A stretch of 33,815 bases of DNA, taken from positions 1 to 33,815 of the forward strand of contig JAOTVX010000040.1 of NCBI GenBank assembly GCA_029863175.1, read 5' to 3'. Below the pieces are notes generated by a model, which saw only the letters and a program-made list of their open reading frames with translations, was not told where the DNA came from and did no database searches. This stretch comes from Betaproteobacteria bacterium (GTDB lineage Bacteria > Pseudomonadota > Gammaproteobacteria > Burkholderiales > SG8-41). This document shows positions 4,383 to 22,873 of the stretch, piece by piece. Position numbers and translations under genes: made by a program. How positions within the stretch are numbered: the stretch's first letter is position 1; every line of letters begins with the position of its first letter.

Positions 4383-4628
4383 GATTTTCCCCATCGTTCA
4401 AAAATCGCCGCTACGACTCCGGAAGGAGCCGCGCCGTTAAACATTGCCGGATCGATCCGGTCTCGGTCTTCAACCAACCTCAGGTGCTGGTTCACAGTTA
4501 AGTGCATTCGTTTCCGGTCGCCTTCCATGGCGCCACGCCGTGCCTCGGACGAGCTTCGCTACTTGGAGCAGATTGGACACGGAAAGCCCCTTTGGGCGGT
4601 AGAGTATCAGCGCCATCCAGTGATATCT

Positions 4629-4642
4629 TTGATGTGCATCAA
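4629..4642. promoter_or_regulatory. FNR/DNR-type operator (perfect dyad)
   Basis: TTGATGTGCATCAA matches the consensus TTGAT-N4-ATCAA in all ten positions. It lies about 250 bases upstream of the decaheme gene start. At the usual -41.5 placement it would give a leader of roughly 200 bases. The regulator gene at 17716-18441 carries the recognition residues expected for this sequence. Confidence 0.6.
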
Positions 4643-4934
4643 ATCTTCTCCTCGCTAAAACAGAGTCGGGATCAAGCTAGCTAATGCGTGGGAGGTTTGT
4701 CCTAATCACCGCAGTAGTGTCGCCCTGTATGAGGCGGCTCAGCCCGGCGATGATCCTGAAAACACAAGAAATAAGAATGGCATATCGCCAAGCGGAAGGA
4801 AGGCAAGGGCCCAAGGGCCGCCCGGTCAGGAGTACAGCGTCCGACGCCGAACTCAATCCGCTGGCGCGGCGAGCACCACAACGCGCGTCTCGCGCCGCCG
4901 TTTCGCCCCCTCTCGACGGTCGCCGCAAAAAAGT

Positions 4935-4948
4935 TTGATCTGGGTCAA
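4935..4948. promoter_or_regulatory. FNR/DNR-type operator (one mismatch)
   Basis: TTGATCTGGGTCAA matches TTGAT-N4-ATCAA in nine of ten positions. It lies 187 bases before the hexaheme cytochrome start and 99 bases from the perfect box at 5034. It could be a second upstream site for the hexaheme operon. Confidence 0.45.
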
Positions 4949-5033
4949 TAAGAGGGTCCCTGCCCATCGTTAACGTTCGCCTAGCGTTAAACAACGGGCG
5001 GGGCCGAACTTTTCCGTGCCAAGGGGAGGAATC

Positions 5034-5047
5034 TTGATTTATATCAA
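5034..5047. promoter_or_regulatory. FNR/DNR-type operator of the hexaheme-NrfCD operon (perfect dyad)
   Basis: TTGATTTATATCAA is a perfect TTGAT-N4-ATCAA palindrome centred at 5040.5. A class II activator site at -41.5 would place the transcript start near 5082, leaving a 40-base leader before the GTG at 5122. The position is therefore well suited to activation of this operon under low oxygen or NO. Confidence 0.65.
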
Positions 5048-5052
5048 CGCGG

Positions 5053-5078
5053 AACGAGCCGATGCTTGCGGGCTCGTT
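5053..5078 (+). promoter_or_regulatory. Leader hairpin with short T run before the hexaheme operon
   Basis: AACGAGCC (5053-5060) pairs perfectly with GGCTCGTT (5071-5078) around a 10-base loop, and the 3' arm runs into TTTT. It lies between the FNR box and the start codon. It may be a weak terminator ending transcripts from upstream, an attenuator, or chance. Confidence 0.35.
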
Positions 5079-5121
5079 TTCTCGGTGAACTAGCAGCGCA
5101 TCGATCATAAGAGGGACATTC

Positions 5122-6123
5122 GTGCCCAAGCACATCGTTCGGTTGGTCGTATTGATTGTCGCTGGTCTGGCAGTCGGCTTGACTGCGAAATGGTATTTCA
5201 CCGCCGAGTCGTTTTATCAGTACGGTCACTACCGGGCCGATTCAGTCCCCGAAATCGCCGCTCAGGAACCGGTCTACAAGACGGCGCGCTACTGCCAGGG
5301 CTGCCACAGCGAACGCCACGCCCAGTGGTCGGCCAGCAATCATAAGTCGGTGACCTGCGAAACCTGTCATGGCGCGGCCCAGGGACACCCCGAGAAAGGC
5401 AAGCTGCCGATCCCCGCGGATACGGTGAAGCTTTGCACCCTGTGCCATGAGGCCATGCCGGGGCGGCCGGACACGCAGCCGCAAATCCAGGTCGCCCAGC
5501 ACTCCAGTGGCCAGCAGTGCAAGGTCTGTCACAACCCGCATGCACCCAAGCTTGCGGGCGTCGTGGCCAAGGTGGCCGGCGATGCGGCGGCAGGAAGCAA
5601 GCAGCACGCGGCCAGTTGCGCGAGCTGCCACGGCGCGGCCGGGATCAGCCCGAATGACACGTGGCCGAACCTGGCGGGGCAGAACGCGGCCTATCTCGTC
5701 CGGATACTGGGCGCGTACAAATCCGGCGATCAGACGGACGTCATGATGTCCCCGATAGCGAAAACGCTCGCTGACGCGGACGTTCAGAATCTCGCGGCCT
5801 ATTACGCGGGCCTGAGCTGCAAAGGGCCGCCCGCGGAAGCGGGCATGGGCGACGCCGCCGCCGGCAAGGTGCTGGCCGCGAAAAATTGCGCGGTCTGCCA
5901 TGGCGAAACGGGCATTGCGAGCAACCCCGCCTGGCCGCACATCGCCGGTCAAAAAGTGAGTTACCTGGTGAACGTGCTCAAAGCCTTCCGGGGCGGCCTT
6001 CGCAAAGACCCGATGATGGCAGGCGTTGTCAGGGGCTTGAGCGACACGGACATCGACAATCTTGCGGCCTTCTACGCGACGCAGAGCTGCGAGCCGGTTA
6101 CCGCGCCAGGAAAAACACCATGA
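5122..6123 (+). CDS. Membrane-anchored hexaheme c-type cytochrome (tetraheme plus two class I domains)
   Basis: A 333-residue protein with one N-terminal membrane anchor (about residues 5-22, IVRLVVLIVAGLAVGLTA) and six CXXCH motifs. The first four (CQGCH 58, CETCH 79, CTLCH 105, CKVCH 133) form a compact multiheme domain like NrfB/NrfH-type electron carriers. The last two (CASCH 166, CAVCH about 256) belong to two c4/c553-like class I domains, each with the PxLAGQ...YL and YYA/FYA signatures. The start is GTG with an AAGAGGG ribosome site. The stop overlaps the next start (ATGA), so it is co-translated with the ferredoxin and NrfD genes. The likely role is to accept electrons from the quinol-oxidising NrfCD-like pair and pass them to periplasmic carriers. 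The tetraheme-plus-c4 fusion is unusual. Confidence 0.85.
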   Translation: MPKHIVRLVVLIVAGLAVGLTAKWYFTAESFYQYGHYRADSVPEIAAQEPVYKTARYCQGCHSERHAQWSASNHKSVTCETCHGAAQGHPEKGKLPIPADTVKLCTLCHEAMPGRPDTQPQIQVAQHSSGQQCKVCHNPHAPKLAGVVAKVAGDAAAGSKQHAASCASCHGAAGISPNDTWPNLAGQNAAYLVRILGAYKSGDQTDVMMSPIAKTLADADVQNLAAYYAGLSCKGPPAEAGMGDAAAGKVLAAKNCAVCHGETGIASNPAWPHIAGQKVSYLVNVLKAFRGGLRKDPMMAGVVRGLSDTDIDNLAAFYATQSCEPVTAPGKTP

Positions 6124-6974
6124 AACGGAAAAAAGAAACCATCTCTTCGTTGGTCGCACGTCGTAGATTTCTGCGCAAGATCGGGGGCGCCGCAACGTGT
6201 GCGGGGGCCGTTGCGGCTGCCGGGACGCTGGGCGTCGCGCAGAAAGTCGCGGCCAAGAGCGAATCCACCTCCGGCGGCGGCTCGTTTCCCACGAAGGACT
6301 ATGACTGGACCCGGCACCAATGGGCTTTTGGCGTCGACGCGACGAAGTGCATCGGCTGCCTGCGCTGCGTCGAGGCGTGCAAGCGCGAGAACGACGTTCC
6401 CGGCGACGCCCACCATTTCCGCACCTGGGTGGAGCGCTACGTCTACCTCGAGGGCGACAGGCGGGCGCGCGTCGACAGCCAGCACGATCCCGTGAATATC
6501 GCGGCCTCCGGCTCCGAGCGCGAGTTTCGATTCGCCAATCGTTACCAGGGCGCGAAGGTGGAAAAGGCTTTCTTCGTGCCCAAGCTGTGCAACCAATGCA
6601 CGCATCCGGCCTGCGTCCAGGCCTGCCCGACCGGCGCAACGTTCAAGACCGTCGATGGCGTGGTGCTCATCGACCACCAGTACTGCATCGGCTGCCAGTA
6701 CTGCGTGCAGGCCTGCCCCTACGGCGCCCGTTTTTTCAGGCCGCAGGAACGGGTCACGGACAAGTGCACGTGGTGTTACCACCGCATCACGAAAGGATTG
6801 CAGCCCGCCTGCGTCGAGGTGTGCCCGGTCGGCGCGCGCGTCTTTGGCGACCGTAACGATCCGCAGAGCCCCATCAGCTTGTTCATCCGCAACAACCGCG
6901 TGCAGGTGCTCCGGCCCGAAAGCGGCAATGCGCCGAACGTGTTTTACGTGGGCATCGATAAGGAGGTGAGCTGA
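6120..6974 (+). CDS. Four-cluster ferredoxin subunit (NrfC/PsrB/DsrO-like), Tat-exported
   Basis: A 284-residue protein starting with a twin-arginine signal (RRRFLRKIGG, about residues 14-23). It has four cysteine groups typical of [4Fe-4S] clusters: CIGCLRCVEAC, CNQCTHPACVQACP, CIGCQYCVQACPYG and CTWCYH...CVEVCPVGA. This is the electron-transfer subunit of the NrfC/PsrB/DmsB/DsrO group, which sits on the periplasmic face and connects a NrfD membrane protein to a partner. The ATG overlaps the upstream cytochrome stop by four bases, and its own stop overlaps the NrfD start. No molybdopterin catalytic subunit is adjacent, so the partner is most likely the hexaheme cytochrome. Confidence 0.9.
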   Translation: MKRKKETISSLVARRRFLRKIGGAATCAGAVAAAGTLGVAQKVAAKSESTSGGGSFPTKDYDWTRHQWAFGVDATKCIGCLRCVEACKRENDVPGDAHHFRTWVERYVYLEGDRRARVDSQHDPVNIAASGSEREFRFANRYQGAKVEKAFFVPKLCNQCTHPACVQACPTGATFKTVDGVVLIDHQYCIGCQYCVQACPYGARFFRPQERVTDKCTWCYHRITKGLQPACVEVCPVGARVFGDRNDPQSPISLFIRNNRVQVLRPESGNAPNVFYVGIDKEVS

Positions 6975-8176
6975 TGGACTACCTCGTTGAACTCGCCCCG
7001 TACACGGGCTACGTCTACCCCAACGAGACCGTCATCCCCTGGACGGTGCTGATCGTGGTCTATCCCTACCTCACGGGACTGGTCGCCGGCGCCTTCACGG
7101 TTTCGAGCCTCTTTCACGCGTTCGGCATGCAGCGCTTCCAGCCTGCGGCGCGGCTTGCGCTGCTCACTGCGCTGTGTTTCATGATATTCGTCCCCATGCC
7201 CCTGCTGTTGCACCTCGGCCATCCGGAGCGCGCGTTCAATACGGTCATCACGCCCCACTGGACCTCCGCCATCGCTGTCTTTGGTTACGTGGCCGGTTTC
7301 TACGTCATTCTGCTGATCCTGGAAATCTGGTTTATGTACCGGCCCTACATGGTGCAGCAGGCGCAGCAGCAACGCGGGCTGGCGGGAAAACTCTGGCACG
7401 TACTGTGCCTCGGTTCCTGCGATCTGTCCGGGAAAGCGCTGCGTTACGACGAAAAATGGATTTTCGCGCTGGCGGTTGTCGGCATTCCCGCCGCGCACGG
7501 CTTGCATGGTTACGTGGGGTTCCTGTTCGGTTCCTTGAAGTCCCGGGAATGGTGGTCCTCCGACCTGATGCCGGTGGTCTTTCTGTTCTCCGCGGTCATT
7601 TCCGGCGTTGCCTTGCTGATCGTCCTCTACGTTCTGTCCTGCAAGGTGCGCAAAGTCGCGGTCGACCTGCAGTGCCTGAAGGGACTCGCTTACGTGCTGT
7701 GGGGATTCGCCATGTTTACCCTCGTCCTGGAGGGGTTGGAATTCGCCAACATCGTCTACAAGGGCCGTGAAGGGATCGAAATGATCCTTGAATACGTGAC
7801 GGGCCCGCTACTAATACCCTTCTTCATCCTGCAGTTCAGCATCGGGGCCGTGGTACCGATTGCGTTGCTCTCGTACCTGATCTGGCGGGGTACCACCGGC
7901 ACGGCGCTGATCGTGGGCGTGACCGTCAGCGCGTTGCTGGTGCTGTTCCAAGTCTGGATGATGCGCTGGAACGTGGTCATCGGCGGCCAGGAAATCGCCA
8001 AGACCGGCAAGGGGCTGCTGAGCTACCAGCTGGTGCTTCTCCACCGGGAGGGGCTGTTGACGGCGGTCTCGGTGACCGTTGCGCCGCTGCTCCTCTTGTG
8101 GGCGACGGTCCGGCTGTTCCCGCCCTGGACACAAGACTCAATCCCTTCACCCTCGCCTCCTGCCAGTGCGGGGTAA
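6974..8176 (+). CDS. NrfD/PsrC-type membrane quinol protein
   Basis: A 400-residue polytopic membrane protein with about ten hydrophobic segments. Conserved features of the NrfD/PsrC/DsrP family include an early acidic/Tyr-rich region (YTGYVYPNETVIPW), LHLGHPERAFN after the third helix, and HGLHGYVGFLFG. The family oxidises or reduces membrane quinones next to an FeS subunit without binding heme. It overlaps the FeS gene stop (TGATG) and has a strong AGGAGG ribosome site inside that gene. Together the three genes form a NrfBCD-like quinol:cytochrome unit. The tail after about residue 385 is Pro/Ser-rich. The substrate side (menaquinol or ubiquinol) cannot be told from sequence. Confidence 0.88.
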   Translation: MDYLVELAPYTGYVYPNETVIPWTVLIVVYPYLTGLVAGAFTVSSLFHAFGMQRFQPAARLALLTALCFMIFVPMPLLLHLGHPERAFNTVITPHWTSAIAVFGYVAGFYVILLILEIWFMYRPYMVQQAQQQRGLAGKLWHVLCLGSCDLSGKALRYDEKWIFALAVVGIPAAHGLHGYVGFLFGSLKSREWWSSDLMPVVFLFSAVISGVALLIVLYVLSCKVRKVAVDLQCLKGLAYVLWGFAMFTLVLEGLEFANIVYKGREGIEMILEYVTGPLLIPFFILQFSIGAVVPIALLSYLIWRGTTGTALIVGVTVSALLVLFQVWMMRWNVVIGGQEIAKTGKGLLSYQLVLLHREGLLTAVSVTVAPLLLLWATVRLFPPWTQDSIPSPSPPASAG

Positions 8177-8386
8177 CCGTTCGAGCAACGCTCGATTCCT
8201 GTGGTGGGCGAAGACCCCGATTGGGAACGTCAGGCCGAGACCGCGAATCGGCTTCGCCTGTTTGCGGCGTAGCGCACAAATCGATTGCGTCTTCGACGCG
8301 TCGGGGTCCATTACTTCCTAACTGCCGAAATCGACGAGCCGCTCGGTTCACGCGACGAAAGGCATTCAAACCACCCGGGCGTGGAC

Positions 8387-8392
8387 TATAAT
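8387..8392 (+). promoter_or_regulatory. Possible -10 element for the diheme cytochrome gene
   Basis: A consensus TATAAT lies 63 bases before the ATG at 8455, in the 278-base gap after the NrfD gene. The matching -35 position (about 8364) is poor (ATTCAA). The gap also holds a small hairpin right after the NrfD stop (TCGAGC/GCTCGA, 8181-8195) without a T run. Confidence 0.35.
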
Positions 8393-8454
8393 AGCGGGCA
8401 TTACTGCGGAACGAAATCGCGAGCCGCGCCGAGATACTTCTTTCTTCTTTCGAC

Positions 8455-9495
8455 ATGCCGAAACGACTTATCGTAGTCGTCACAACGACCGTGCTTTCGC
8501 TTGCCGCGTCGGTCATGCCGCCTGCGGCGAGCGCACAGATTGACGGGCGTAGCGGGAAGCAGGTCGTGGACGAGGTGTGCGCTGCCTGCCACGCAACCGG
8601 GGCGACAGGCGCGCCCAGGATCGGCAACAAGGACGCATGGGCTCCCCTGGCCTCGAGGGGGCTTACCAGCCTCACGGAAAGCGCGCTCAAGGGTATCCGC
8701 AACATGCCGTCGCATGGCGGTAATCCGGGCCTCTCCGATCTCGAGATCGAGCGCGCCATCACCTATATGGTCAACCGCTCGGGCGGCGAATGGATCGAGC
8801 CGATCGGGGGCGTCACGCCAGCGCTCGAACGCAAGGGGAAGCAAGTTGTGGAATTGCAGTGCGCGAAGTGCCATGAAACGGGGGTGTTTGGCGCCCCGAA
8901 GATCGGCGACCGTACCGCGTGGATATTGCGGCTCAGACGAGGCCTTGACTTCCTGGTGCGCTCGGCGATCAATGGACACGGCCCGATGCCGCCGCGGGGG
9001 GGCATGGCCGAGCTCACTGATCTCGAGCTGCGCGCTGCAATTCTGCACATGTTCAATCCGGCCGGCACGGCGACGGAACCCGCTCAGGCCGCGCCGATCG
9101 CGGCGCACGACCCGAATCGCAAGGTCGCGGATGGAATGGAGATCTACCTCGGGATCGTTTCGGCGGAAACGCTGGGCGAGCGCTACGCGAAAGACGATCC
9201 AGAACGCATGATTCACGGCGGCATCCCGAGGGGCAGAGGCTATTACCATCTCAACATTTCGCTGTTCGACAGCAAGACTCGCCTGGCGATCGCCAATGCG
9301 GAAGTGACGGCCAGCGTCACGGAGCCCGTGTGGGGAGGCGAAACGAAAGAACTCGAGCTCGTGAGCCTCAAAGGCGCGAAGAGCTATGGCAACTACTTTC
9401 GCATGACAGGCAAGAATTCGTACCGGATCGTCGTGCGAGTCCAGCGCCCGGGCGGGTCGAGGGAGATCCAGACCGAATTTGAGTTCAAGCCGTAG
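8455..9495 (+). CDS. Exported diheme cytochrome c with C-terminal beta-rich domain
   Basis: A 346-residue protein with a signal peptide (to about residue 28, ASA-QIDG). Two c5-like class I heme domains follow (CAACH about residue 43, CAKCH about residue 141), each ending in an 'LSDLEIERAI.YMVN' or 'LTDLELRAAILHMFN' helix. After a linker at about residue 200, a domain of about 130 residues has no heme motif (GMEIYLGIVSAETL... YYHLNISLFD... GNYFRMTGKNSYRI). It looks like an immunoglobulin-type beta sandwich, and loosely recalls periplasmic metal-binding Tp34/P19-like proteins. That similarity is by eye only. It is likely a soluble periplasmic carrier in the cytochrome cluster. It has no strong ribosome site. 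Confidence 0.75.
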   Translation: MPKRLIVVVTTTVLSLAASVMPPAASAQIDGRSGKQVVDEVCAACHATGATGAPRIGNKDAWAPLASRGLTSLTESALKGIRNMPSHGGNPGLSDLEIERAITYMVNRSGGEWIEPIGGVTPALERKGKQVVELQCAKCHETGVFGAPKIGDRTAWILRLRRGLDFLVRSAINGHGPMPPRGGMAELTDLELRAAILHMFNPAGTATEPAQAAPIAAHDPNRKVADGMEIYLGIVSAETLGERYAKDDPERMIHGGIPRGRGYYHLNISLFDSKTRLAIANAEVTASVTEPVWGGETKELELVSLKGAKSYGNYFRMTGKNSYRIVVRVQRPGGSREIQTEFEFKP

Positions 9496-9632
9496 TGAGC
9501 GCCAAATGTGCAAGGCGCGCGTCGCGACCACGGTTTTTGGATTTTCGCGGAGGGATGTTCTCGGCGACCGGCTGCCTATCCTTCATGAGGCAAGGTTGGT
9601 ACGGGTTCGCGATATCGGTTGAGGAAACGTCG

Positions 9633-10859
9633 ATGAGCCGAACTGCGCAGGTGCGTTATCCCACAGTCTTGTTTTTGGCGGTTGCGGCAGCGTTGATATG
9701 GTGCGCTGGCGCCGCAGCGCAGGGGGGCACGACGCCCACCGGCGAAGCCGTCGACCTGCGAGCAGTCTTTGCCAACGCCGCGGACATTGCCGAAGGCCGC
9801 CGGGTCGCACAAACGTGTGCCCGCTGCCATGGAGAAAATGGCATCGGCACGACCAAGGACGTGCCCCACGTCGCCGGCCAGCGTCCGGCCTATCTCTTCA
9901 ACAAGCTGCGCGCCTATCAGACGGGTGCGCGGCGCGACCCGATCATGGAACCCGCGGTCAAATTTCTGAGCGACGACGCACTGGTCAAGGTAGCGGCCTA
10001 TTACAGCAGCCTCGAGCCCGCGCAACCGCTCGCCTCGGCCCTCAAGGCCCCATCAGCCCAACGCGACCCCGTTGCCGCCGGCAAGGCCACAGCCGCCGCC
10101 TGCGGCGGTTGCCATGGTGATGACGGGGTGAGCAAGATACCCGGCATGCCGAGCCTGGCCGGACTCGATCCGAAGTACTTCGTGGTGGCGATGAAGGGGT
10201 ACGTGAACGGGCAGCGCAAGAACGACATGATGAAGTCGTTCGCCACGCCGCTTACCGATGCGGATTTGAATAACCTCGCTTTGTACTACGGCTTGCAAAA
10301 GCCCAAGCGGGCGGAAACGCCGGCAGCCGGTGACCAGGCGGCCGGCAAGAAGGCGGCAGCGAATTGTGCCGGTTGCCATGGCGAGCAGGGCGTCAGCACG
10401 AATTCCGCCAATCCGAGTCTGGCAGGCCAGGATGCCGAATATCTCGTTGCCGCGCTGCGCGCTTACAAGGACGGGTCGCGCACCGAGGGCACGATGAAAA
10501 ACGCCGTGGCGGCGCTCGGGGCCGGGACCCTGAAGGATTTGGCGGCATTTTACGCGGCCCAGCAACCGCAGGCGCCGAAGGTGGTCAAGCCGCTGAGCAC
10601 CGCCGAGTGGGTGCAGCGATGCGATCGCTGTCACGGCGTCAATGGCAACAGCACCGACCCGCGCGCGCCGGCCATGGCGGCGCAGCGCGCCGATTACCTC
10701 GCCAAGGTGCTGCACGCCTATCAGAATGGCGCGCGCAAGGAATCAGTGATGGCCGCCATGACCAGCTCACTGACGAAAGCGGATATTGCCAGCCTTGCGG
10801 CCTATTATGCGCGCCAGCGGGCGCGTGCTTTCGTCTACGTTACCCTGCCATGCAAATGA
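9633..10859 (+). CDS. Exported tetraheme cytochrome c (four c4/c553-like domains)
   Basis: A 408-residue protein with a signal peptide (PTVLFLAVAAALIWCAGAAAQ) and four tandem class I domains of about 90 residues. The heme motifs are CARCH, CGGCH, CAGCH and CDRCH. Each is followed by the P.(L/M)AGQ...YL..(L/M)(R/K)AY..G motif, a distal Met region and a closing L.(N/K)(L)A.(Y/F)Y(A/S) helix, as in cytochrome c4. The ATG at 9633 is preferred over the upstream ATG at 9495 because of a GAGG site and the signal peptide. The gene is followed after one base by the one-heme membrane protein, so the two are coupled. It is probably a periplasmic electron shuttle. Confidence 0.85.
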   Translation: MSRTAQVRYPTVLFLAVAAALIWCAGAAAQGGTTPTGEAVDLRAVFANAADIAEGRRVAQTCARCHGENGIGTTKDVPHVAGQRPAYLFNKLRAYQTGARRDPIMEPAVKFLSDDALVKVAAYYSSLEPAQPLASALKAPSAQRDPVAAGKATAAACGGCHGDDGVSKIPGMPSLAGLDPKYFVVAMKGYVNGQRKNDMMKSFATPLTDADLNNLALYYGLQKPKRAETPAAGDQAAGKKAAANCAGCHGEQGVSTNSANPSLAGQDAEYLVAALRAYKDGSRTEGTMKNAVAALGAGTLKDLAAFYAAQQPQAPKVVKPLSTAEWVQRCDRCHGVNGNSTDPRAPAMAAQRADYLAKVLHAYQNGARKESVMAAMTSSLTKADIASLAAYYARQRARAFVYVTLPCK

Positions 10860-10860
10860 T

Positions 10861-11640
10861 ATGAGCGAGACCTCACTGCACCCGATGTACAGTCATTATT
10901 CGGAGCTGCCGTACAGCTTGCGCGTGCTGTACACGGCAGCGCTCCTCGTGCTCGGACTGGGCTACCTGTTCGCCCTCACCTATTTGTTCCATGTCGACTC
11001 GGCAAAGGACGGCGATCCGTCGTCGCTCTCTTACGAAGATGTTGTCATCACCTATTCCGGCACTGGAAAAGGCACGCGCCTCGAGTCCGCGTTGCGCGGC
11101 CCGATGAGAAGCATGCTGCCAACCGATGAAATCGATACGTTGATTTCCTGGACACAGCAGGGAGCCGATCGAGCGACCTACGAGAGCCAGATCAAGCCGA
11201 TCGTGGATAAGCGCTGCCTCGCCTGTCATGACGGCAGCAACCCCCACCTGGCGAATATCAAAGGGTATGACAATATTCAGAAAGTCATCGAACGCGACAC
11301 CGGCACCGGAATTTTCACGCTCGTTCGCCTCTCCCACGTCCACCTGTTCGGCCTCACCTTCGTCTTTTTCGTCATGGGCATTATCTTCAGCCATGCCTAT
11401 GTCCGGCCCGTTTGGCTGAAGTGCACCGCCGTGGCGCTTCCGTTCGTCTGCCTCGTGCTGGACGTGAGCTCCTGGTATTTCACCAAGCTGTACCACCCCT
11501 TTGCCCTGGTGGTGATGGGAGCGGGCGCGGGCATGGGCGCGTCATTCGCCTACATGTGGGTGGTGTCGATGTATCAGTTGTGGTTCTCCGGAACACCCGC
11601 GGCAGTGGCGAGGAGAGCACGCGACGCGGACGTTGGCTGA
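10861..11640 (+). CDS. Membrane protein with a single c-type heme motif, unknown function
   Basis: A 259-residue protein with four predicted membrane segments: about residues 23-43 (VLYTAALLVLGLGYLFALTYLFH), then 163-183, 190-211 and 217-240. The loop between the first and second segments carries one CXXCH (RCLACHDG, about residue 119). I do not recognise a named family. The heme motif in the periplasmic loop plus histidines at the membrane face (LVRLSHVHLFG) suggest a membrane-bound electron carrier. It starts one base after the tetraheme cytochrome stop without a clear ribosome site, consistent with coupled translation, and it ends 22 bases before the convergent tetraheme lipoprotein. A role as membrane anchor or quinol-side partner of the tetraheme protein is inference. 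Confidence 0.7.
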   Translation: MSETSLHPMYSHYSELPYSLRVLYTAALLVLGLGYLFALTYLFHVDSAKDGDPSSLSYEDVVITYSGTGKGTRLESALRGPMRSMLPTDEIDTLISWTQQGADRATYESQIKPIVDKRCLACHDGSNPHLANIKGYDNIQKVIERDTGTGIFTLVRLSHVHLFGLTFVFFVMGIIFSHAYVRPVWLKCTAVALPFVCLVLDVSSWYFTKLYHPFALVVMGAGAGMGASFAYMWVVSMYQLWFSGTPAAVARRARDADVG

Positions 11641-11662
11641 CGGGGGCAGACGAACTCCGCGT

Positions 11663-12802
11663 TTATTTCGCGGGCTGACTAGCGTAGAAGGCCGAGACGC
11701 TTTCGATGATGGAATCGCTGTACGGCAGACTCATCCGGTGCATCATCGATACCTCGCGCCTGTCGTCGCGGTAGGCCCGCAGGGCCATGACGAGATAATC
11801 CTTGTCCTGGCCATTGATTTTCGGAACCGTGAGGTCGGACATGTCCGCATCCGGGTTGTGGCAACGATTGCATTTTTGTGCAAGCTCCTTCACGAACCCC
11901 TCTCCCTTTTCGGCCGGCTGGGATTTCTGCGTCGCATAGAACGCGGCGATGTTTCCGATATCCTTGTCACTCAGGCTGACGACGTATTCGCGCATGCGCT
12001 CGCGCTTGCGAGTGGTCCGGTAGGCCTTGATCGCCTTCACGAGGTAATCGGGATCCTGGCTCGCGAGCGTTGGCGTCGCGGTGTCCGTGCTGACACCGTT
12101 GGGTCCGTGACAGCCGCCGCACACTGCGCTGAGCGGCTGGCCAGCCGCGGGATCGCCCGCGGTCGGCGCTGCACGCGGTGCCGGCGCCTGCGACGCAAAA
12201 TAAAGCGCTATGCTTTCCAGCTCCACCCTCTCCAGGCGTGGCAACATCGCATGCATAGGAGATTTCTCGCGTTCGGCGTGCAAGTACTCCTGGACGGCAA
12301 GGATCAGATAACGGATTTGCTGGCCGGCCAGGCTCGGCACCCCGGAAGTCGTGCTGTTGCCGCCTTCGCCGTGGCATTTTTCGCACGGCGCCGCCAGCTC
12401 CTTGCCCCGTTCATAGGGAGAAATCAACTGGACTTCCTTAGACCAGGCGCTGGCCACCGGCGGCAGACTGGCGTAATAGGCCGCCACATTGCGCAGCTCC
12501 GCGTCGCTCATGTGCCCCGTCAGGTCCTTCAGGGCAGCGTGAATTCGCGTGCCCTCTTTGTAGGCCTTCAACGACGAAAGCAGGTAGCGCCCCCGTTGCG
12601 CGGCGAGTATGGGAATCGCCGGAGCGGCATTGCTGCCGTCCAAAAGATGGCAGCCGATACAGTCGCGCTGAGCGATTGCTTTTCCCGCCGCAATGTCTGC
12701 TGCAGCCAACTTTTCGGAAACGGGCTTGCCAGCGGACTTATCTTGTTCCATGCAGCCAAACAGCGCGATCGACAGGACAAAAGCCAGCACAAGCGTCTTC
12801 AT
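11663..12802 (-). CDS. Tetraheme cytochrome c lipoprotein (c4-like domains)
   Basis: A 379-residue protein with a lipoprotein signal (MKTLVLAFVLSIALFGC) and four tandem class I domains with CIGCH, CEKCH, CGGCH and CNRCH. The domain plan matches the plus-strand tetraheme protein at 9633-10859, so the two are paralogues in convergent orientation. The difference is membrane attachment: this one is lipidated, the other is soluble after signal cleavage. Both carry the P.LA(G/S)Q...YL region and the YYA/FYA closing helix. It is expected to carry electrons at a membrane surface on the periplasmic side. Its own upstream region (12803-13373) is long and shows no FNR box. Confidence 0.85.
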   Translation of the reverse strand: MKTLVLAFVLSIALFGCMEQDKSAGKPVSEKLAAADIAAGKAIAQRDCIGCHLLDGSNAAPAIPILAAQRGRYLLSSLKAYKEGTRIHAALKDLTGHMSDAELRNVAAYYASLPPVASAWSKEVQLISPYERGKELAAPCEKCHGEGGNSTTSGVPSLAGQQIRYLILAVQEYLHAEREKSPMHAMLPRLERVELESIALYFASQAPAPRAAPTAGDPAAGQPLSAVCGGCHGPNGVSTDTATPTLASQDPDYLVKAIKAYRTTRKRERMREYVVSLSDKDIGNIAAFYATQKSQPAEKGEGFVKELAQKCNRCHNPDADMSDLTVPKINGQDKDYLVMALRAYRDDRREVSMMHRMSLPYSDSIIESVSAFYASQPAK

Positions 12803-13373
12803 CTCGAACCTCGAGGATTATCTGGTTGGCCAAGGATCGGCAGATTCCCATCCACTGTCGCACCTTGGGGCCACTCGATAGCATTCTATTCCCAAAACGA
12901 ATGGAAACCTAGCATTGCTCTTCCCGCACGCGCCTGCGCTCACGTGTAGATAGGCACCACCTGGAACACTTGAATCGTTCGCTTACGCGCCCGATCACCT
13001 TTTCCCAGCCGAAGCGGGAGAGTGTCGATCTCGATACGAATTCTAGTATTTCCGATCGCTGTCCCTTCAGGGCTGGCGTAGGACCGGAGTGCGGGTCATG
13101 CACACGGTTGAGCAAATTCGTCGGGCATTATGATCTCTGATCGTGGAATATCCATGCTTCGGGCTGATATATAATTCGAAGGATCGTATTGTGCCGGCGG
13201 CGGCGCGACATTCCCGACTGGATGGACGTCACACTATTTCGTCGGGTCCCGCTCCAAGCCCATCTCCGCCTTATGACGGGGCTCCACCGGAACGATGAGC
13301 GGGATTAGAATGGATTTTTCAACTTGGCGGAAATTCAGGATTCGGACACCGCCTTTTTATTGGGAGAACAGGA
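12803..13373. other. Gap between divergent tetraheme and triheme cytochrome genes
   Basis: About 570 bases without a credible gene. A TATAAT-like sequence (13170-13175) points toward the triheme gene but is about 200 bases upstream of it and lacks a good -35. I see no FNR-type dyad and no repeat-family copy here. The short open frames are unsupported. Confidence 0.4.
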
Positions 13374-13691
13374 ATGAAAGTTACCCAGGCATTGATGGTC
13401 GTTGTCGCAGCTGTCGCGTTTATCGGAGGCGCCATGGCGGCGCCGCCCGGCAAGACGGTGGAATTTGCCGGCGGGCCCATGGGGAAAGTGACGTTTGACG
13501 GCAAGATCCACGCGGACAAGGGGCTGAAGTGCAACGACTGCCATACGAAGATCTTTCAAATGAAAAAAGGCACGGCCAAGATCACCATGGCCGCCATGAA
13601 CAAAGGCGAAAACTGCGGCACGTGCCACAACGGCACCAAGGCGTTCAAATCGAGTGATCCTGCCAACTGCACCAAGTGTCACAAGAAGTAG
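13374..13691 (+). CDS. Periplasmic triheme cytochrome c7 (PpcA-like)
   Basis: A 105-residue protein with a signal peptide (cleavage near GGAMA-APPG). A short mature domain has three CXXCH motifs (CNDCH, CGTCH, CTKCH) and many lysines. The KVTFDGKIHADKGLKCNDCH opening and NCTKCHKK ending are the pattern of c7-type triheme cytochromes such as Geobacter PpcA. In those bacteria they carry electrons across the periplasm from CbcL or ImcH to outer-membrane conduits. The start has a GGGAGAACAGG ribosome region. It lies 310 bases before the CbcL-like gene on the same strand. The combination supports a PpcA-like role, but the organism is not evidently a Geobacter relative. Confidence 0.85.
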   Translation: MKVTQALMVVVAAVAFIGGAMAAPPGKTVEFAGGPMGKVTFDGKIHADKGLKCNDCHTKIFQMKKGTAKITMAAMNKGENCGTCHNGTKAFKSSDPANCTKCHKK

Positions 13692-14001
13692 TGGCGGGAT
13701 GCTCTTACTCGACGGTGCGGCTCGCGCCTTCCAAGACCTGCAGCCGCGCCTGGGAATTTGATCTGGCGGCCCGCGCACAGACCGGCCCGTAGAACAACGC
13801 GGCGGCGGGTTGCTTCGCGAGTCAGCAAGCAGGAGGCTGGCCGTTTCGTGCCAGCCGCACCCTCGCGGATTCGGTGCTTCGCTCGGCTGTCCGGCCCCGC
13901 GCCAAGTCCGCAAGATTGGGGTTATTTCAATGCCGCGTGAGCACCCATGGCGGCTCGGGTTCGTGCGAGCACGATAAAGATCGGCGACGAAAAAGAGAAT
14001 A
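13692..14001. other. Gap between triheme and CbcL-like genes
   Basis: About 310 bases with no gene. A perfect 7-bp stem GGCTGGC/GCCAGCC (13835-13856, 8-base loop) is present without a T run, so it is at best a weak terminator. A lone half-site TTGATCTGG occurs near 13757. Nothing else stands out. Confidence 0.35.
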
Positions 14002-16005
14002 ATGCATATTCCAAGAGGTGCCGCCTGGGTAATGGCAAGCATTATTGCTCTGGCGGGAATCCGCATCGTCCTGGCGACCGGGGCGCAAGCCGCGGAGGCT
14101 GCCGCGCAAACCGCCGAAAAGCCTGGCAACGAAATCTGCCTGGGTTGCCACGGAAATGAGGGCTTTGCGATGCCCGGTCCTGACGGCCAGGTGCGCCCGC
14201 TGCACGTGGCGCCGAACAAGTTCGGGAATAGCGTGCATGGCAAGCGGCTTTGCGTCGAGTGTCACAAGGACATCACCGAGATCCCGCACCGCAAAGGCAC
14301 GGGGCACAAAGTGAGTTGCGTGCAGTGCCACCAGGATTTGTGGGCAGCCGCTCAGAAAAAGAACTCGACCGAGCAATTCGCGAAGCTGGGCGTGGTGGTA
14401 CGGCAGATCGACAGCTATATGCACTCCGTTCACGCGCGGCCCAGCAGAGCGGACCAGTCGCGCACCAACGCTACCTGCTACAACTGCCACGACGCCCATT
14501 ACGTTTATCCAGTCGGCAGCACGATTCGCGCAGAGTGGCGCATGGACATTCCAAACGTCTGCGGAAAATGCCACGTCAAACAGCGGAACGAGTACGTGAC
14601 TTCGGTGCATGGCGACGAGGTCCTCTGGAAGCGTAATGCGAAAGCGGCTATCTGCTCCGATTGCCACACCACGCACGACATCGACAACTCGAACGAGGAC
14701 TCGATGAAGCTCGTCATCACCAAGAACTGCGGAAACTGTCATCAGGAAAATCTAGCGAGCTATACGGGAACCTATCATGGCCAGGTCAACACGTTGGGCT
14801 TTGCCTATACGGCAAAGTGCTACAACTGCCACGGCAGCCACACCATCCAGCGGGCAGCGGATCCGGACTCCAAGGTGCATCCGGATAACCGCCTGAAAAC
14901 CTGTCAACAGTGTCATGCCGATGCGACTCAGGGGTTCGTGACGTTCATGCCGCACGCCAACACGCACGACCGGGAACGCTATCCCACCATGTGGATCGCG
15001 TCCAAGTTCATGATCGGACTGCTGATCGGGGTGTTCGCCTTCTTCTGGACGCATTCGCTGCTGTGGTTTTACCGGGAACACAAGGAGCGGCAGGAGTTTC
15101 TCCGGGACCACAAGGACCGGCGGGAGAGCAAGCGTGAGCCGCACGTGGCGCTCGCGGGGCTGCCGCAGCTCGAGGGCAAGCAGTTCGGGCGGTTCGGCCC
15201 CGTCTGGCGCCTCGGCCACCTGTGCTTTGCTCTGAGCGTGATGCTGCTCGTGCTGACGGGCATGGCCGTGCTCTACGGCGAAACCGGCTGGGCGAAATAC
15301 ATCGTGAGCGCGCTGGGCGGCCCGCGCGTGGCCGCGATCGTGCACCGGGCGAGCGCCGCGACCATGCTGGGCATCTTCTTCATCCACCTCGTCTACATGG
15401 CGTTCCGGGTGGTTCCGAAGTGGCGGCCGGCGGACTGGTTCGGGCCGAATTCTCTGGTGCCCAACCTCAAGGATCTGCGGGACTCCGTCGGCATGTTCAA
15501 CTGGTTCTTCGGCAAGGGGCCGCGGCCTCAGTTCGACCGCTGGACCTACTGGGAAAAGTTCGATTACTGGGCGGTGTTCTGGGGCATGGCCATCATCGGC
15601 GGCAGCGGCATGATGCTGGCGTTCAAGGGGTGGACGGCTTCGGTGCTTCCTGGCTGGGTCTTTAACGTGGCGACGCTAGTGCACGGGGAGGAGGCGATCC
15701 TCGCCGCCGTGTTCCTGTTCACGGTGCATTTCTTCAATAACCATTTCCGGCCAGACAAGTATCCGCCCCCCGATATCGTGATGTTCACGGGCGCCGTGTC
15801 GTTGGAAGAGTTCGCGCGCGAGCACACTCTGGAATACAAGGAGCTGGTCGAAACGGGACAACTCGAGAAACATCTGGTGGACGCGCCCTCGGGGGCGATG
15901 ACGCTGGGCTCCAGGATACTGGGCATCGTGCTCCTCGCTTTCGGCTTGACGCTACTTGTCATGGTGCTGATCGGGTTCGTGGGTAGCATGACCGCGGGCC
16001 TTTGA
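14002..16005 (+). CDS. CbcL-like nonaheme cytochrome c / cytochrome b fusion
   Basis: A 667-residue protein with a signal peptide (VMASIIALAGIRIVLATGAQA). Nine CXXCH motifs follow in a periplasmic domain to about residue 305 (CLGCH, CVECH, CVQCH, CYNCH, CGKCH, CSDCH, CGNCH, CYNCH, CQQCH). The C-terminal half is a membrane domain with about six helices from residue 335 onward. Histidines in IVHRASA, FFIHLVY, LVHGEEA and TVHFFNNHF fit b-heme ligation, as in HydC/FdnI-type cytochrome b. Nine c hemes fused to a diheme b domain is the architecture described for Geobacter CbcL, an inner-membrane quinol oxidase used for low-potential extracellular acceptors. Its 3' end overlaps the convergent protoporphyrinogen oxidase gene by 54 bases. 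An alternative start is ATG 14032. Confidence 0.85.
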   Translation: MHIPRGAAWVMASIIALAGIRIVLATGAQAAEAAAQTAEKPGNEICLGCHGNEGFAMPGPDGQVRPLHVAPNKFGNSVHGKRLCVECHKDITEIPHRKGTGHKVSCVQCHQDLWAAAQKKNSTEQFAKLGVVVRQIDSYMHSVHARPSRADQSRTNATCYNCHDAHYVYPVGSTIRAEWRMDIPNVCGKCHVKQRNEYVTSVHGDEVLWKRNAKAAICSDCHTTHDIDNSNEDSMKLVITKNCGNCHQENLASYTGTYHGQVNTLGFAYTAKCYNCHGSHTIQRAADPDSKVHPDNRLKTCQQCHADATQGFVTFMPHANTHDRERYPTMWIASKFMIGLLIGVFAFFWTHSLLWFYREHKERQEFLRDHKDRRESKREPHVALAGLPQLEGKQFGRFGPVWRLGHLCFALSVMLLVLTGMAVLYGETGWAKYIVSALGGPRVAAIVHRASAATMLGIFFIHLVYMAFRVVPKWRPADWFGPNSLVPNLKDLRDSVGMFNWFFGKGPRPQFDRWTYWEKFDYWAVFWGMAIIGGSGMMLAFKGWTASVLPGWVFNVATLVHGEEAILAAVFLFTVHFFNNHFRPDKYPPPDIVMFTGAVSLEEFAREHTLEYKELVETGQLEKHLVDAPSGAMTLGSRILGIVLLAFGLTLLVMVLIGFVGSMTAGL

Positions 16006-21179: not shown

Positions 21180-21259
21180 AGCCGCAGATAAACGCAGTTA
21201 AAATGAACTTCTTGAAGATTATAAAGTTTGCCGATTTTCATCGGCGTTTATCTGCGGCT
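21180..21259. repeat. GCAGATAAACGC-family inverted repeat, copy 2
   Basis: The left arm AGCCGCAGATAAACGCAG (21180-21197) and right arm ATCGGCGTTTATCTGCGGCT (21240-21259) are near-perfect reverse complements around an AT-rich 42-base centre. It fills the gap between the membrane-anchored unknown and the predicted selenoprotein gene. Confidence 0.85.
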
Positions 21260-21316: not shown

Positions 21317-21928
21317 ATGCCGAATATCACCATGCTCGATATCGAGGCGCTGAGGAAAACCAAACTCGGGCCTTATATCGACAAATGCCTCCAGCATCGC
21401 GCGCCGGACCCGGGTTTCCACGCGATGATGGGGCACAACGTGGACCTGTGCGAAGCGATGTTCGTCGCCTGGGACACGATCTTCAATACCGGTCGCGTCA
21501 GCCATGCGCTGAAGGAGATCATCCGGGTGCAGCTCTCCCGCATGGCGTCCTGCGTGTACTGAGGGAACGTCCGGTCCGCTTCGGCGAAGCGGCAGGGTCT
21601 GAAGGAAGACGACATCGACGAGGGCATTGCCAACTACGAGGCGAGCTCTCGCTTCACCGAAGCTGAAAAGCTCGCGCTGCGCTATAGCGAGCTGATGGCG
21701 CTCGATCCGGACCGGATCGGGCGCGAGTTCTACCACGAGCTGCGCCGGCATTATTCCGAGGAGGAGATCGTCGAGCTCGGCGCCTTCATCGGCTTCAACG
21801 TCGGCTATCACACGTTCTTCGGCACGCTGAAGTTCTACCCGATGTTCTCGCCGGACGGGCGGCTCGTTACGCAGGAGGAGTCTCAACGCATTTATGGTGC
21901 CGCGCCCGTCTCGCTGGTGAAATCATGA
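21317..21928 (+). CDS. AhpD-like carboxymuconolactone decarboxylase-family protein, predicted selenoprotein (in-frame TGA)
   Basis: The same frame runs from ATG 21317 to the stop at 21926-21928, broken only by TGA at 21560-21562. Read through, it gives 203 residues of a typical CMD/AhpD-like protein, with HALKEIIRVQLSRMASCVY, then the TGA, then GNVRSASAKRQGLKEDD. The TGA falls where the family has the second cysteine of its CXXC redox motif, giving C79-V80-Y81-U82. A 7-bp hairpin (21576-21592) follows at SECIS distance. CMD/AhpD-like proteins are a known bacterial selenoprotein family using CXXU. Codon use and conservation continue after the TGA (FTEAEKLALRYSELMALDPDRIGREFYHELRRHYSEEEIVELGAFIGFNVGYHTFF). 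The expected role is a thiol/selenol oxidoreductase or peroxidase-type reaction. The alternatives are a recent nonsense mutation or a base error. Confidence 0.78.
21576..21592 (+). promoter_or_regulatory. Candidate bacterial SECIS hairpin
   Basis: CCGCTTC (21576-21582) pairs perfectly with GAAGCGG (21586-21592) around the loop GGC. Twenty bases separate the TGA from the loop, and the loop begins with G, both within the known bacterial SECIS rules (loop about 16-37 bases after UGA, G among the first two loop bases). A short lower pairing CC/GG (21571-21572 with 21596-21597) may extend it across a 3x3 internal loop. An alternative fold uses a C(UUCG)G tetraloop with only three pairs. Confidence 0.65.
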
Positions 21929-21958: not shown

Positions 21959-22196
21959 AGCCGCGGATAAACACAGATCAATATTCACAGAAGGCGGAAG
22001 AATCAAGAACAAGAGCAGAGCCATTTGGCCGCCGATGGACGCCGATGAACGCCGATAAACTCCAAAACCGACCCGCCAGGTGCGCAAGGGAGGATCAAGT
22101 GCAGGAATTACTTCGATCGGCGTTTATCGGCGGCTAATATTGTTTTTCTGATTTTCGTTATATCTGTGTTTATCTTATCTGCGTTTGTCTGCGGCT
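21959..22196. repeat. GCAGATAAACGC-family repeat, compound copy 3
   Basis: Two nested copies. The outer arms are AGCCGCGGATAAACACAGAT (21959-21978) and TATCTGCGTTTGTCTGCGGCT at the 3' end (to 22196). The inner arms are GACGCCGATGAACGCCGATAA (about 22035-22056) and GATCGGCGTTTATCGGCGGCT (22116-22136). The 3' end touches the start codon of the next gene (22200), leaving no room for a normal ribosome site. A 70-codon open frame across it is a by-product of the repeat. Confidence 0.85.
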
Positions 22197-22199
22197 GAA

Positions 22200-22748
22200 A
22201 TGCCTTACGTAGCGCCGTTAAAGCCCGAAGAGATTCGGGACCCCGAGTTGCTGGCGCTGATCGAGCGCTGCGAAGCGTTGGGGGTGCCCGATACCCTCTT
22301 TCCCAGGATTCTCGCGCGCGTTCCGGCGCATGCGAAGGCGTTGCTGCGGGCGCTGCTCGTCTCCCACGCCGAGGGCGACGTCGACCATCGCTTGAAGGAG
22401 ATCATCCGCGTGCAGCTCGCCCGGATCGCGGGCGACCCCTACTTTGCCGGCCTGCGCTCGAGGCGGGCACAGCAGGCGGGGCTTGATGAAGACACCATTG
22501 AGGCCGGTGCGAAGAAGCCCGAAGACGACCCCCGCTTCACCCCGGCAGAGAGGTGGGCGCTGCGCTACGCGCGCGAGATGTATCTCAACCCGGAGCGGGT
22601 GGATGCCGCCTTCTACGACGAAGGCAAGAAGCATTACACCGAGGCGCAGATCATGGAGCTCGGGGCGTTCATCGCGTTCCACTACGGCATGCAGGCGTTT
22701 GCGCGCACGCTCGGCGCCCTCCCGCTCAAAGAAGGAACGCCAGGATAA
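22200..22748 (+). CDS. AhpD-like carboxymuconolactone decarboxylase-family protein lacking the redox pair
   Basis: A 182-residue paralogue of the neighbouring predicted selenoprotein. The cores align without gaps (LKEIIRVQLARIAGDPYF against LKEIIRVQLSRMASCVYU). At the two redox positions it has D79 and F82 instead of Cys and Sec/Cys, so it cannot run the thiol cycle and probably binds a different substrate or acts structurally. The C-terminal half keeps the family pattern (FTPAERWALRYAREMYLNPERVDAAFYDEGKKHYTEAQIMELGAFIAFHYGMQAFARTLG). The start at 22200 avoids the repeat-derived residues MSAAE that a start at 22185 would add. No clear ribosome site; the repeat occupies that position. Confidence 0.82.
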   Translation: MPYVAPLKPEEIRDPELLALIERCEALGVPDTLFPRILARVPAHAKALLRALLVSHAEGDVDHRLKEIIRVQLARIAGDPYFAGLRSRRAQQAGLDEDTIEAGAKKPEDDPRFTPAERWALRYAREMYLNPERVDAAFYDEGKKHYTEAQIMELGAFIAFHYGMQAFARTLGALPLKEGTPG

Positions 22749-22780: not shown

Positions 22781-22873
22781 AGCCGCAGATAAGCGCAGAT
22801 GAACGCCGATGTACAACATAGTGAATTACTGTTTTTCGGTCATATCGGCGTTTATCGACGTGCATCGGCGGCT
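22781..22873. repeat. GCAGATAAACGC-family inverted repeat, copy 4
   Basis: Left arm AGCCGCAGATAAGCGCAGAT followed by GAACGCCGAT (22781-22810); right arm ATCGGCGTTTATCGACGTGC then ATCGGCGGCT (22844-22873). The arms are near reverse complements around a centre containing GTGAATTACTGTTTTT, related to the centre of copy 1. It fills the gap between the second CMD gene and pcp. Confidence 0.85.

Follow-up and report, generated by a model that had tools for sequence, protein, structure and literature searches.

A predicted AhpD-like selenoprotein gene and its constant redox-dead partner in uncultured Betaproteobacteria and other bacteria

The window analyzed here, a stretch of 33,815 nucleotides (nt) from contig JAOTVX010000040.1 of Betaproteobacteria bacterium (GCA_029863175.1), carries an AhpD-like gene with an in-frame TGA that we predict to be read as selenocysteine (Sec), a hairpin resembling a Sec insertion sequence (SECIS) just past this codon and, farther downstream, a paralogous gene designated below as the partner. 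The features are as follows, with the basis of each assignment in brackets.

21317 to 21928, forward strand: predicted AhpD-like selenoprotein gene, 203 codons, Sec at codon 82, end stop TGA (frame, relatives, CMD Pfam match)
21551 to 21553, forward strand: TGC codon for Cys79 of the C-x-Y-U motif (Cys, as TGC or TGT, in 64/64 spanning loci)
21560 to 21562, forward strand: in-frame TGA, predicted Sec, residue 82 (TGA in 64/64 spanning loci)
21576 to 21592, forward strand: SECIS-like hairpin, 7 bp, loop GGC at 21583–21585 (pairing, RNAalifold, SECIS criteria)
21578 to 21589, forward strand: codons 88–91, GCT TCG GCG AAG, identical in 65/65 sequences (zero codon entropy)
22200 to 22748, forward strand: putative redox-dead AhpD-like partner, 182 codons, D-P-Y-F for C-V-Y-U (alignment, Pfam, gene order)
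22434 to 22436, forward strand: partner Asp codon at the place of Cys79 (Asp in 63/63 partners)

The frame of the first gene runs from an ATG at 21317 to the stop codon TGA at 21926–21928, and codon 82 is its sole internal stop, so that the site reads C79-V-Y-TGA (U82). This agrees with the first-pass annotation, made from the sequence alone, which had described a 203-codon frame broken only by a TGA three residues after Cys79 and had proposed Sec at this position. The predicted protein passes the gathering score of the Pfam family PF02627 (carboxymuconolactone decarboxylase, CMD; 29.9 bits, cut-off 23). Seven of the 16 Pfam-supported genes in the window end in TGA, and 15 of the 16 have no internal stop, the exception being the gene studied here.

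A genome scan returned 65 related loci, of which 64 span codon 82 (L063 ends before it); these 64 and the window form the set of 65 sequences used below. The related loci show 62–91% identity to the window protein, and their record titles span several phyla, with uncultured Betaproteobacteria, Alphaproteobacteria, Nitrospinota, Tectomicrobia, SAR324, and Acidimicrobiia among others. TGA occupies codon 82 in all 64 spanning loci and TGG in none, and Cys79 is likewise present in all of them; unrelated residues in homologues, which the first-pass annotation had named as grounds against Sec, were not found. Three loci (L013, L014, and L016) are titled Bordetella parapertussis or Klebsiella pneumoniae, yet they come from metagenome-assembled genomes and the L014 and L016 copies group with uncultured Proteobacteria in our tree, so the species names look wrong.

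A gene caller splits the frame at 21317–21928, and one close relative (P0017) has Cys at the site; both could speak for a pseudogene, in which the TGA is a nonsense mutation or a sequencing error in a former Cys gene. Set against this are the persistence of the TGA in all spanning loci and several phyla, the lack of any second stop in the aligned part of the 64 frames, and ratios of nonsynonymous to synonymous substitution rates (dN/dS) well below 1 on both sides of the codon (0.06–0.16 before the TGA and 0.08–0.30 after it, against 12 relatives). We regard the pseudogene as practically negligible.

The readings of database proteins cover 120 listed of 433 found. Eight of these carry W at the site (P0002–P0006, P0008, P0042, and P0115), one carries C, 61 start just after it, and 50 gave no reading by a simple motif test. 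The C-bearing protein is P0017, a close Cys homologue with C-V-F-C from a 518-base contig. The eight W residues are what would be seen if TGA were a sense codon for Trp in the carriers; we take them to come from pipelines reading TGA as Trp. The end stops of the 63 complete genes (two of the 65 run off the record) are TGA in 38, TAG in 15, and TAA in 10; many carrier genes therefore end in TGA themselves, and TGA is not a general sense codon. Together with the stops of the window genes, the absence of TGG from all 64 spanning loci, and the Sec machinery of the carriers described below, this makes a Trp codon exceedingly improbable. Two database proteins (P0023 and P0088) appear by eye to be hybrids of the Sec protein and the partner, perhaps through recombination between tandem copies or as assembly chimeras.

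The hairpin downstream of the TGA consists of the arms CCGCTTC (21576–21582) and GAAGCGG (21586–21592). The 7 bp and the G-starting loop given by the first-pass annotation stand, but the 20 nt that it placed between TGA and hairpin is the distance to the loop; the stem begins 13 nt past the TGA. Codons 88–91, which are neighbors and form the hairpin tip, are the only 4 of 95 tested columns without synonymous change in the 65 sequences (columns were tested where at least 85% of them share an amino acid with degenerate codons). Across 59 distinct rows the stem is paired in 99.3% of cells: one of the seven pairs changed on both sides (CG 32, UA 20, UG 7), one changed on one side, four are invariant, and the last deviates solely through unpaired cells. 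The stem has a covariation score above that of all 500 shuffles, and RNAalifold recovers the inner six pairs. We applied the SECIS criteria given in a figure legend of PMC13188914 (loop 3–9 nt, upper stem 4–16 bp, G in the first two loop positions, spacing 16–37 nt, and energy of at most −7.5 kcal/mol) with our own script rather than bSECISearch, taking as control positions every fifth codon at a distance of more than 20 codons. All 65 sequences pass, compared with 239 of 1686 other codon positions (14%) and 119 of 1300 synonymous redraws (9%); in the window the 3-nt loop GGC, 7 bp, and 20-nt spacing come with an energy of −9.1 kcal/mol when only the hairpin is folded and of −13.6 kcal/mol over 43 nt.

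If the TGA were a true stop, with two separate proteins or a merely regulatory readthrough, the 61 database proteins annotated to begin just past it would be as expected, but these starts are gene-caller output; as the first-pass annotation had foreseen, annotators report fragments. The TGA occupies the conserved redox position of the fold, the hairpin after it passes the SECIS criteria and is frozen at its synonymous sites, and the redox position holds Cys in P0017 and TGA or Cys in all 20 stretches of sister subfamilies described below; a true stop is thus very improbable. The selenoprotein assignment would correct the annotation of this gene, which pipelines either split or begin only past the UGA (e.g., P0011, a SAR324 "hypothetical protein").

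Sec machinery was searched in 50 carrier genomes, representing 50 of the 65 loci, and in 14 control genomes, the window's own genome lying outside this set. The tRNA for Sec (tRNA-Sec) was found in 43 of the 50 carriers at 59–78 bits, all other listed matches reaching at most 51.8 bits; SelB passed its cut-off in 42 and SelA in 43, and at least one of tRNA-Sec (at 59 bits or more), SelA, and SelB occurs in 47. In the controls, the cut-offs for tRNA-Sec, SelB, and SelA were passed in 5, 2, and 1 genomes, respectively. From the constant TGA and Cys79, the SECIS-like hairpin in 65/65 sequences, and this machinery, we infer that Sec is inserted in this organism too, as the first-pass annotation had proposed. 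SelD was searched in 12 genomes and passed its cut-off in nine; the selD of six of these nine (G016, G021, G027, G032, G041, and G043) has an in-frame TGA, so that SelD is itself probably a selenoprotein there.

The partner is 40% identical to the window Sec protein and also passes PF02627 (27.2 bits, cut-off 23). The first-pass annotation had stated that an in-window paralogue aligns across the TGA; the alignment holds, but this paralogue is the partner, whose D-P-Y-F, unmentioned there, means that it has no Cys/Sec pair. Sixty-three sequences have room for a partner (the window and 62 loci, since L003 and L061 break off too early), and in 63/63 it lies downstream on the same strand, never apart from the Sec gene. 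The two genes are separated by −4 to +13 nt in 47 of the 63 and by 60–136 nt in several of the window's close relatives; the gap in the window itself, 271 nt, is the largest of all. Copies of a repeat around GGCGTTTATCNGCGGC (e.g., 21181–21258, 22028–22195, and 22782–22872) flank both genes and occupy this gap; in both orientations, 23 matches with up to three mismatches fall within 980–33496 of the window, against 2.4 expected.

The partner motif is D-x-Y-F in 60 of the 63, D-x-Y-S in two, and D-S-H-S in one, and among database partners (120 listed of 1313 found) it is D-x-Y-F in 118 with one D-x-Y-V and one N-x-Y-F. Lys66, Glu67, Arg70, Arg86, and Ser87 are invariant in the 63 partners and in 62 Sec proteins, and within the partners Asp79 is invariant and Tyr81 nearly so (0.98). 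In L033 the Sec gene and the partner are fused in one frame, and in 18 of the 120 listed database proteins a partner domain shares one chain with the part past the UGA (D-x-Y-F in 15, D-x-C-F or D-x-H-F in three). In a tree built from 33 Sec proteins, 33 partners, and 10 outsiders, the Sec proteins and the partners each fall on one side of a branch (97/82 and 100/100), which fits one old split that has been kept as a pair. The root of this tree serves for display only, and the partners and outsiders are joined through long branches, so that the sister relation of Sec proteins and partners rests mainly on their higher mutual identity (37–40% in most shown, against 29–36% to outsiders).

We consider it highly probable that 21317–21928 encodes an AhpD-like selenoprotein that works with an inactive partner, a confidence that applies chiefly to the selenoprotein. 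The sequences compared here directly show the open frame with its invariant TGA, the frozen hairpin, the constant presence of the partner, and the fusions. The product would be a 203-residue oxidoreductase of the CMD fold with Sec as its second active-site residue (C79-x-Y81-U82), inserted at the UGA by SelB and tRNA-Sec under the direction of the hairpin just downstream, which would at the same time encode S87-A-S-A-K-R. As to chemistry and substrate, we infer from the known chemistry of AhpD that the most likely role of the selenol/thiol pair is to reduce a hydroperoxide or other electrophile, forming a selenenyl-sulfide that a reductant would reopen. A decarboxylase activity was set aside, since what is conserved is the Cys/Sec pair. 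That all 64 spanning loci keep the TGA suggests a reaction that Cys performs poorly.

Several observations weigh against this. Only one stem pair shows double-sided changes, a number reached by 401 of the 500 shuffles; no Rfam family reaches its gathering score in the window; and dinucleotide shuffles fold no less stably than the single sequence (z +0.34), which led us to reject single-sequence folding as proof of a SECIS. Seven of the 50 carriers gave no clear tRNA-Sec, and the draft genomes G027, G029, and G043 have none of tRNA-Sec, SelA, and SelB over the cut-off; SelD passes its cut-off in G027 and G043, whereas G029 has no SelD over the cut-off and a cut-short SelB of 207.8 bits that falls below it. 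In the family of genome G002, tRNA-Sec occurs in 14/14 carriers (one a fragment) and also in 53 of 60 genomes where the gene was not seen; tRNA-Sec being this common there, co-occurrence is unspecific and was rejected as proof. The heteromer is the less sure part of our interpretation, drawn as it is from gene order, fusion, and modeling.

For that part, the partner has kept the fold family together with E67, R70, R86, S87, and nearly always Y81, with Asp in place of Cys79 and, in 60/63, Phe in place of Sec82. The Sec protein and the partner most likely pair up as an active/inactive heterodimer, in some lineages as a single fused chain, and the subunit with Asp may shape the site, bind a ligand, or regulate. 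AhpD-like proteins of the size of the Sec protein are known as homo-oligomers, and the partner's own invariant Asp, Glu, and Arg may mean a chemistry of its own; the partner could accordingly be a separate enzyme that is merely co-transcribed with a homo-oligomeric Sec protein. This alternative, which concerns the heteromer and not the selenoprotein, is possible though rather doubtful, since the two genes are never apart in 63/63 sequences and are fused in L033 and in 18 of the listed proteins.

Sister subfamilies of AhpD-like genes were represented by 20 fetched stretches from the family of G002, and all 20 have TGA or Cys at the site: C-x-Y-TGA in 15 (five of them by only one of two queries) and C-E-F-C in five (four of one kind and one of another). 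L095 carries a C-E-F-TGA copy as well, its genes at 478–849 (C-A-Y-TGA) and 2018–2329 (C-E-F-TGA) being tandem AhpD-like genes with in-frame TGA. No Asp partner was seen in the 20 stretches. The C-E-F-C family (L086–L089) consists of Cys-type relatives with 30–35% identity that differ in having Cys for Sec and a shorter C-terminus, and has no Asp partner within the 1.5–2.5 kb fetched on either side. Cys homologues at the UGA position thus exist, close in P0017 and distant in the five C-E-F-C stretches. The Cys versions (P0017, L086–L089, and L093) read C-x-F-C and nearly all Sec versions C-x-Y-U, with a Sec exception in L095, so that a link between the preceding residue (F or Y) and the use of Cys or Sec is possible. 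The loci L076–L085, L090–L092, L094, and L095 represent a radiation of TGA-bearing AhpD-like genes in uncultured Betaproteobacteria, and genome G009 has at least six AhpD-like matches with in-frame TGA among the matches listed. Three loci, two of them titled Nitrospinota, have another, distant AhpD-like frame with C-P-H-TGA close to the pair: L031 (8280–8684), L034 (12666–13064), and L037 (8256–8654).

The wider neighborhood gave no support for a conserved operon. In a crude clustering of 835 neighboring open reading frames, whose choice is poor in GC-rich DNA, the partner occurs in 42 loci and an overlapping, mostly antisense cluster in 42, and apart from these no cluster occurs in more than 14. 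Ten of the 12 printed cluster representatives were scanned and are largely catabolic enzymes. Among plasmid records, 15 gave distant protein matches (26.1–34.5% identity) and none a DNA match. The window contains no tRNA gene; its region 1761–16005 holds a cluster of an MtrC-like multihaem cytochrome, an NrfD-like protein, and c-type cytochromes, possibly for extracellular electron transfer.

Selenoproteins of the AhpD-like and CMD-like families with C-x-x-U are already known, from the Sargasso Sea in 2005 (PMC1088965), as AhpD-like 1 and 2 from Global Ocean Sampling in 2008 (PMC2398784), and in the tables of PMC9312934 and PMC13188914, which bears out the first-pass annotation on this point. 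In the relevant passages they resemble the present gene in family, motif, and a SECIS directly past the UGA; in the 2005 study a candidate was retained only if two or more Cys homologues were known for it. The constant Cys-less, Asp-bearing partner gene goes unmentioned in these descriptions, and the operon passage of PMC13188914 places AhpD-like genes with Prx-like genes and not with an inactive AhpD twin. Our search of the open-access literature, with subscription papers mostly outside its scope, found no report of a Sec gene paired with an inactive AhpD twin. The best NCBIfam match, NF053654 ("YciW-related (seleno)protein", GroundWater_YciW), covers residues 49–167 of the Sec protein with 64.8 bits against a cut-off of 310, which indicates a different subfamily; TIGR01926 (peroxidase-related enzyme) likewise stays below its cut-off (44.4 bits, cut-off 81.8).

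Profile search (6ohi, E 2.5e-12) and fold comparison (6ohj, E 1e-5) both give the debrominase Bmp8 as the nearest solved relative; it has C-x-Y-C at the same place, with Cys instead of Sec, and 22–23% identity. Selenium has a role in the thyroid deiodinase, and the Sec protein could be a reductive dehalogenase like Bmp8 in which selenium acts in a similar manner; the largely catabolic neighbors scanned in several lineages might agree with this. The margin of Bmp8 over other AhpD-like proteins is small, however (2ijc, E 1.1e-11 by profile and 3.4e-5 by fold), the Cys mutated in 6ohj aligns with Cys79 and not with Sec82, no halogen-related gene was found among the neighbors scanned, and the deiodinase analogy is general background; a literature search on the debrominase returned no relevant paper. 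We consider a dehalogenase unlikely.

The selenoprotein and its partner also resemble the human stress protein Sestrin2, which shares with them tandem AhpD-like domains, one active and one inactive, in a pseudo-twofold arrangement; it differs in its 12% identity in superposition and in having Leu where the bacterial proteins have Sec, and the bacterial pair, unlike Sestrin2, is mostly two genes. Homology to sestrins by sequence was looked for and not found: a Pfam scan of the fusion gave only CMD at E up to 10, with filters dropping most weak matches, a profile search up to E 1 gave no sestrin chain, and the open-access literature yielded nothing relevant on bacterial sestrin-like fusions. The dimer arrangement is common to AhpD-like proteins and may explain the likeness. 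Only tentatively, and with considerable doubt, can the pair be viewed as a bacterial, selenium-based counterpart of sestrins, in which a peroxide- or halide-reactive Sec domain is bound or fused to a redox-dead domain whose near-invariant Asp for Cys would read a ligand or the redox state, and which arose separately from, or before, the eukaryotic sestrins. The constant pairing of an active with an inactive copy offers a bacterial system in which to test why a redox enzyme should retain an inactive twin, the same question that is posed by sestrin.
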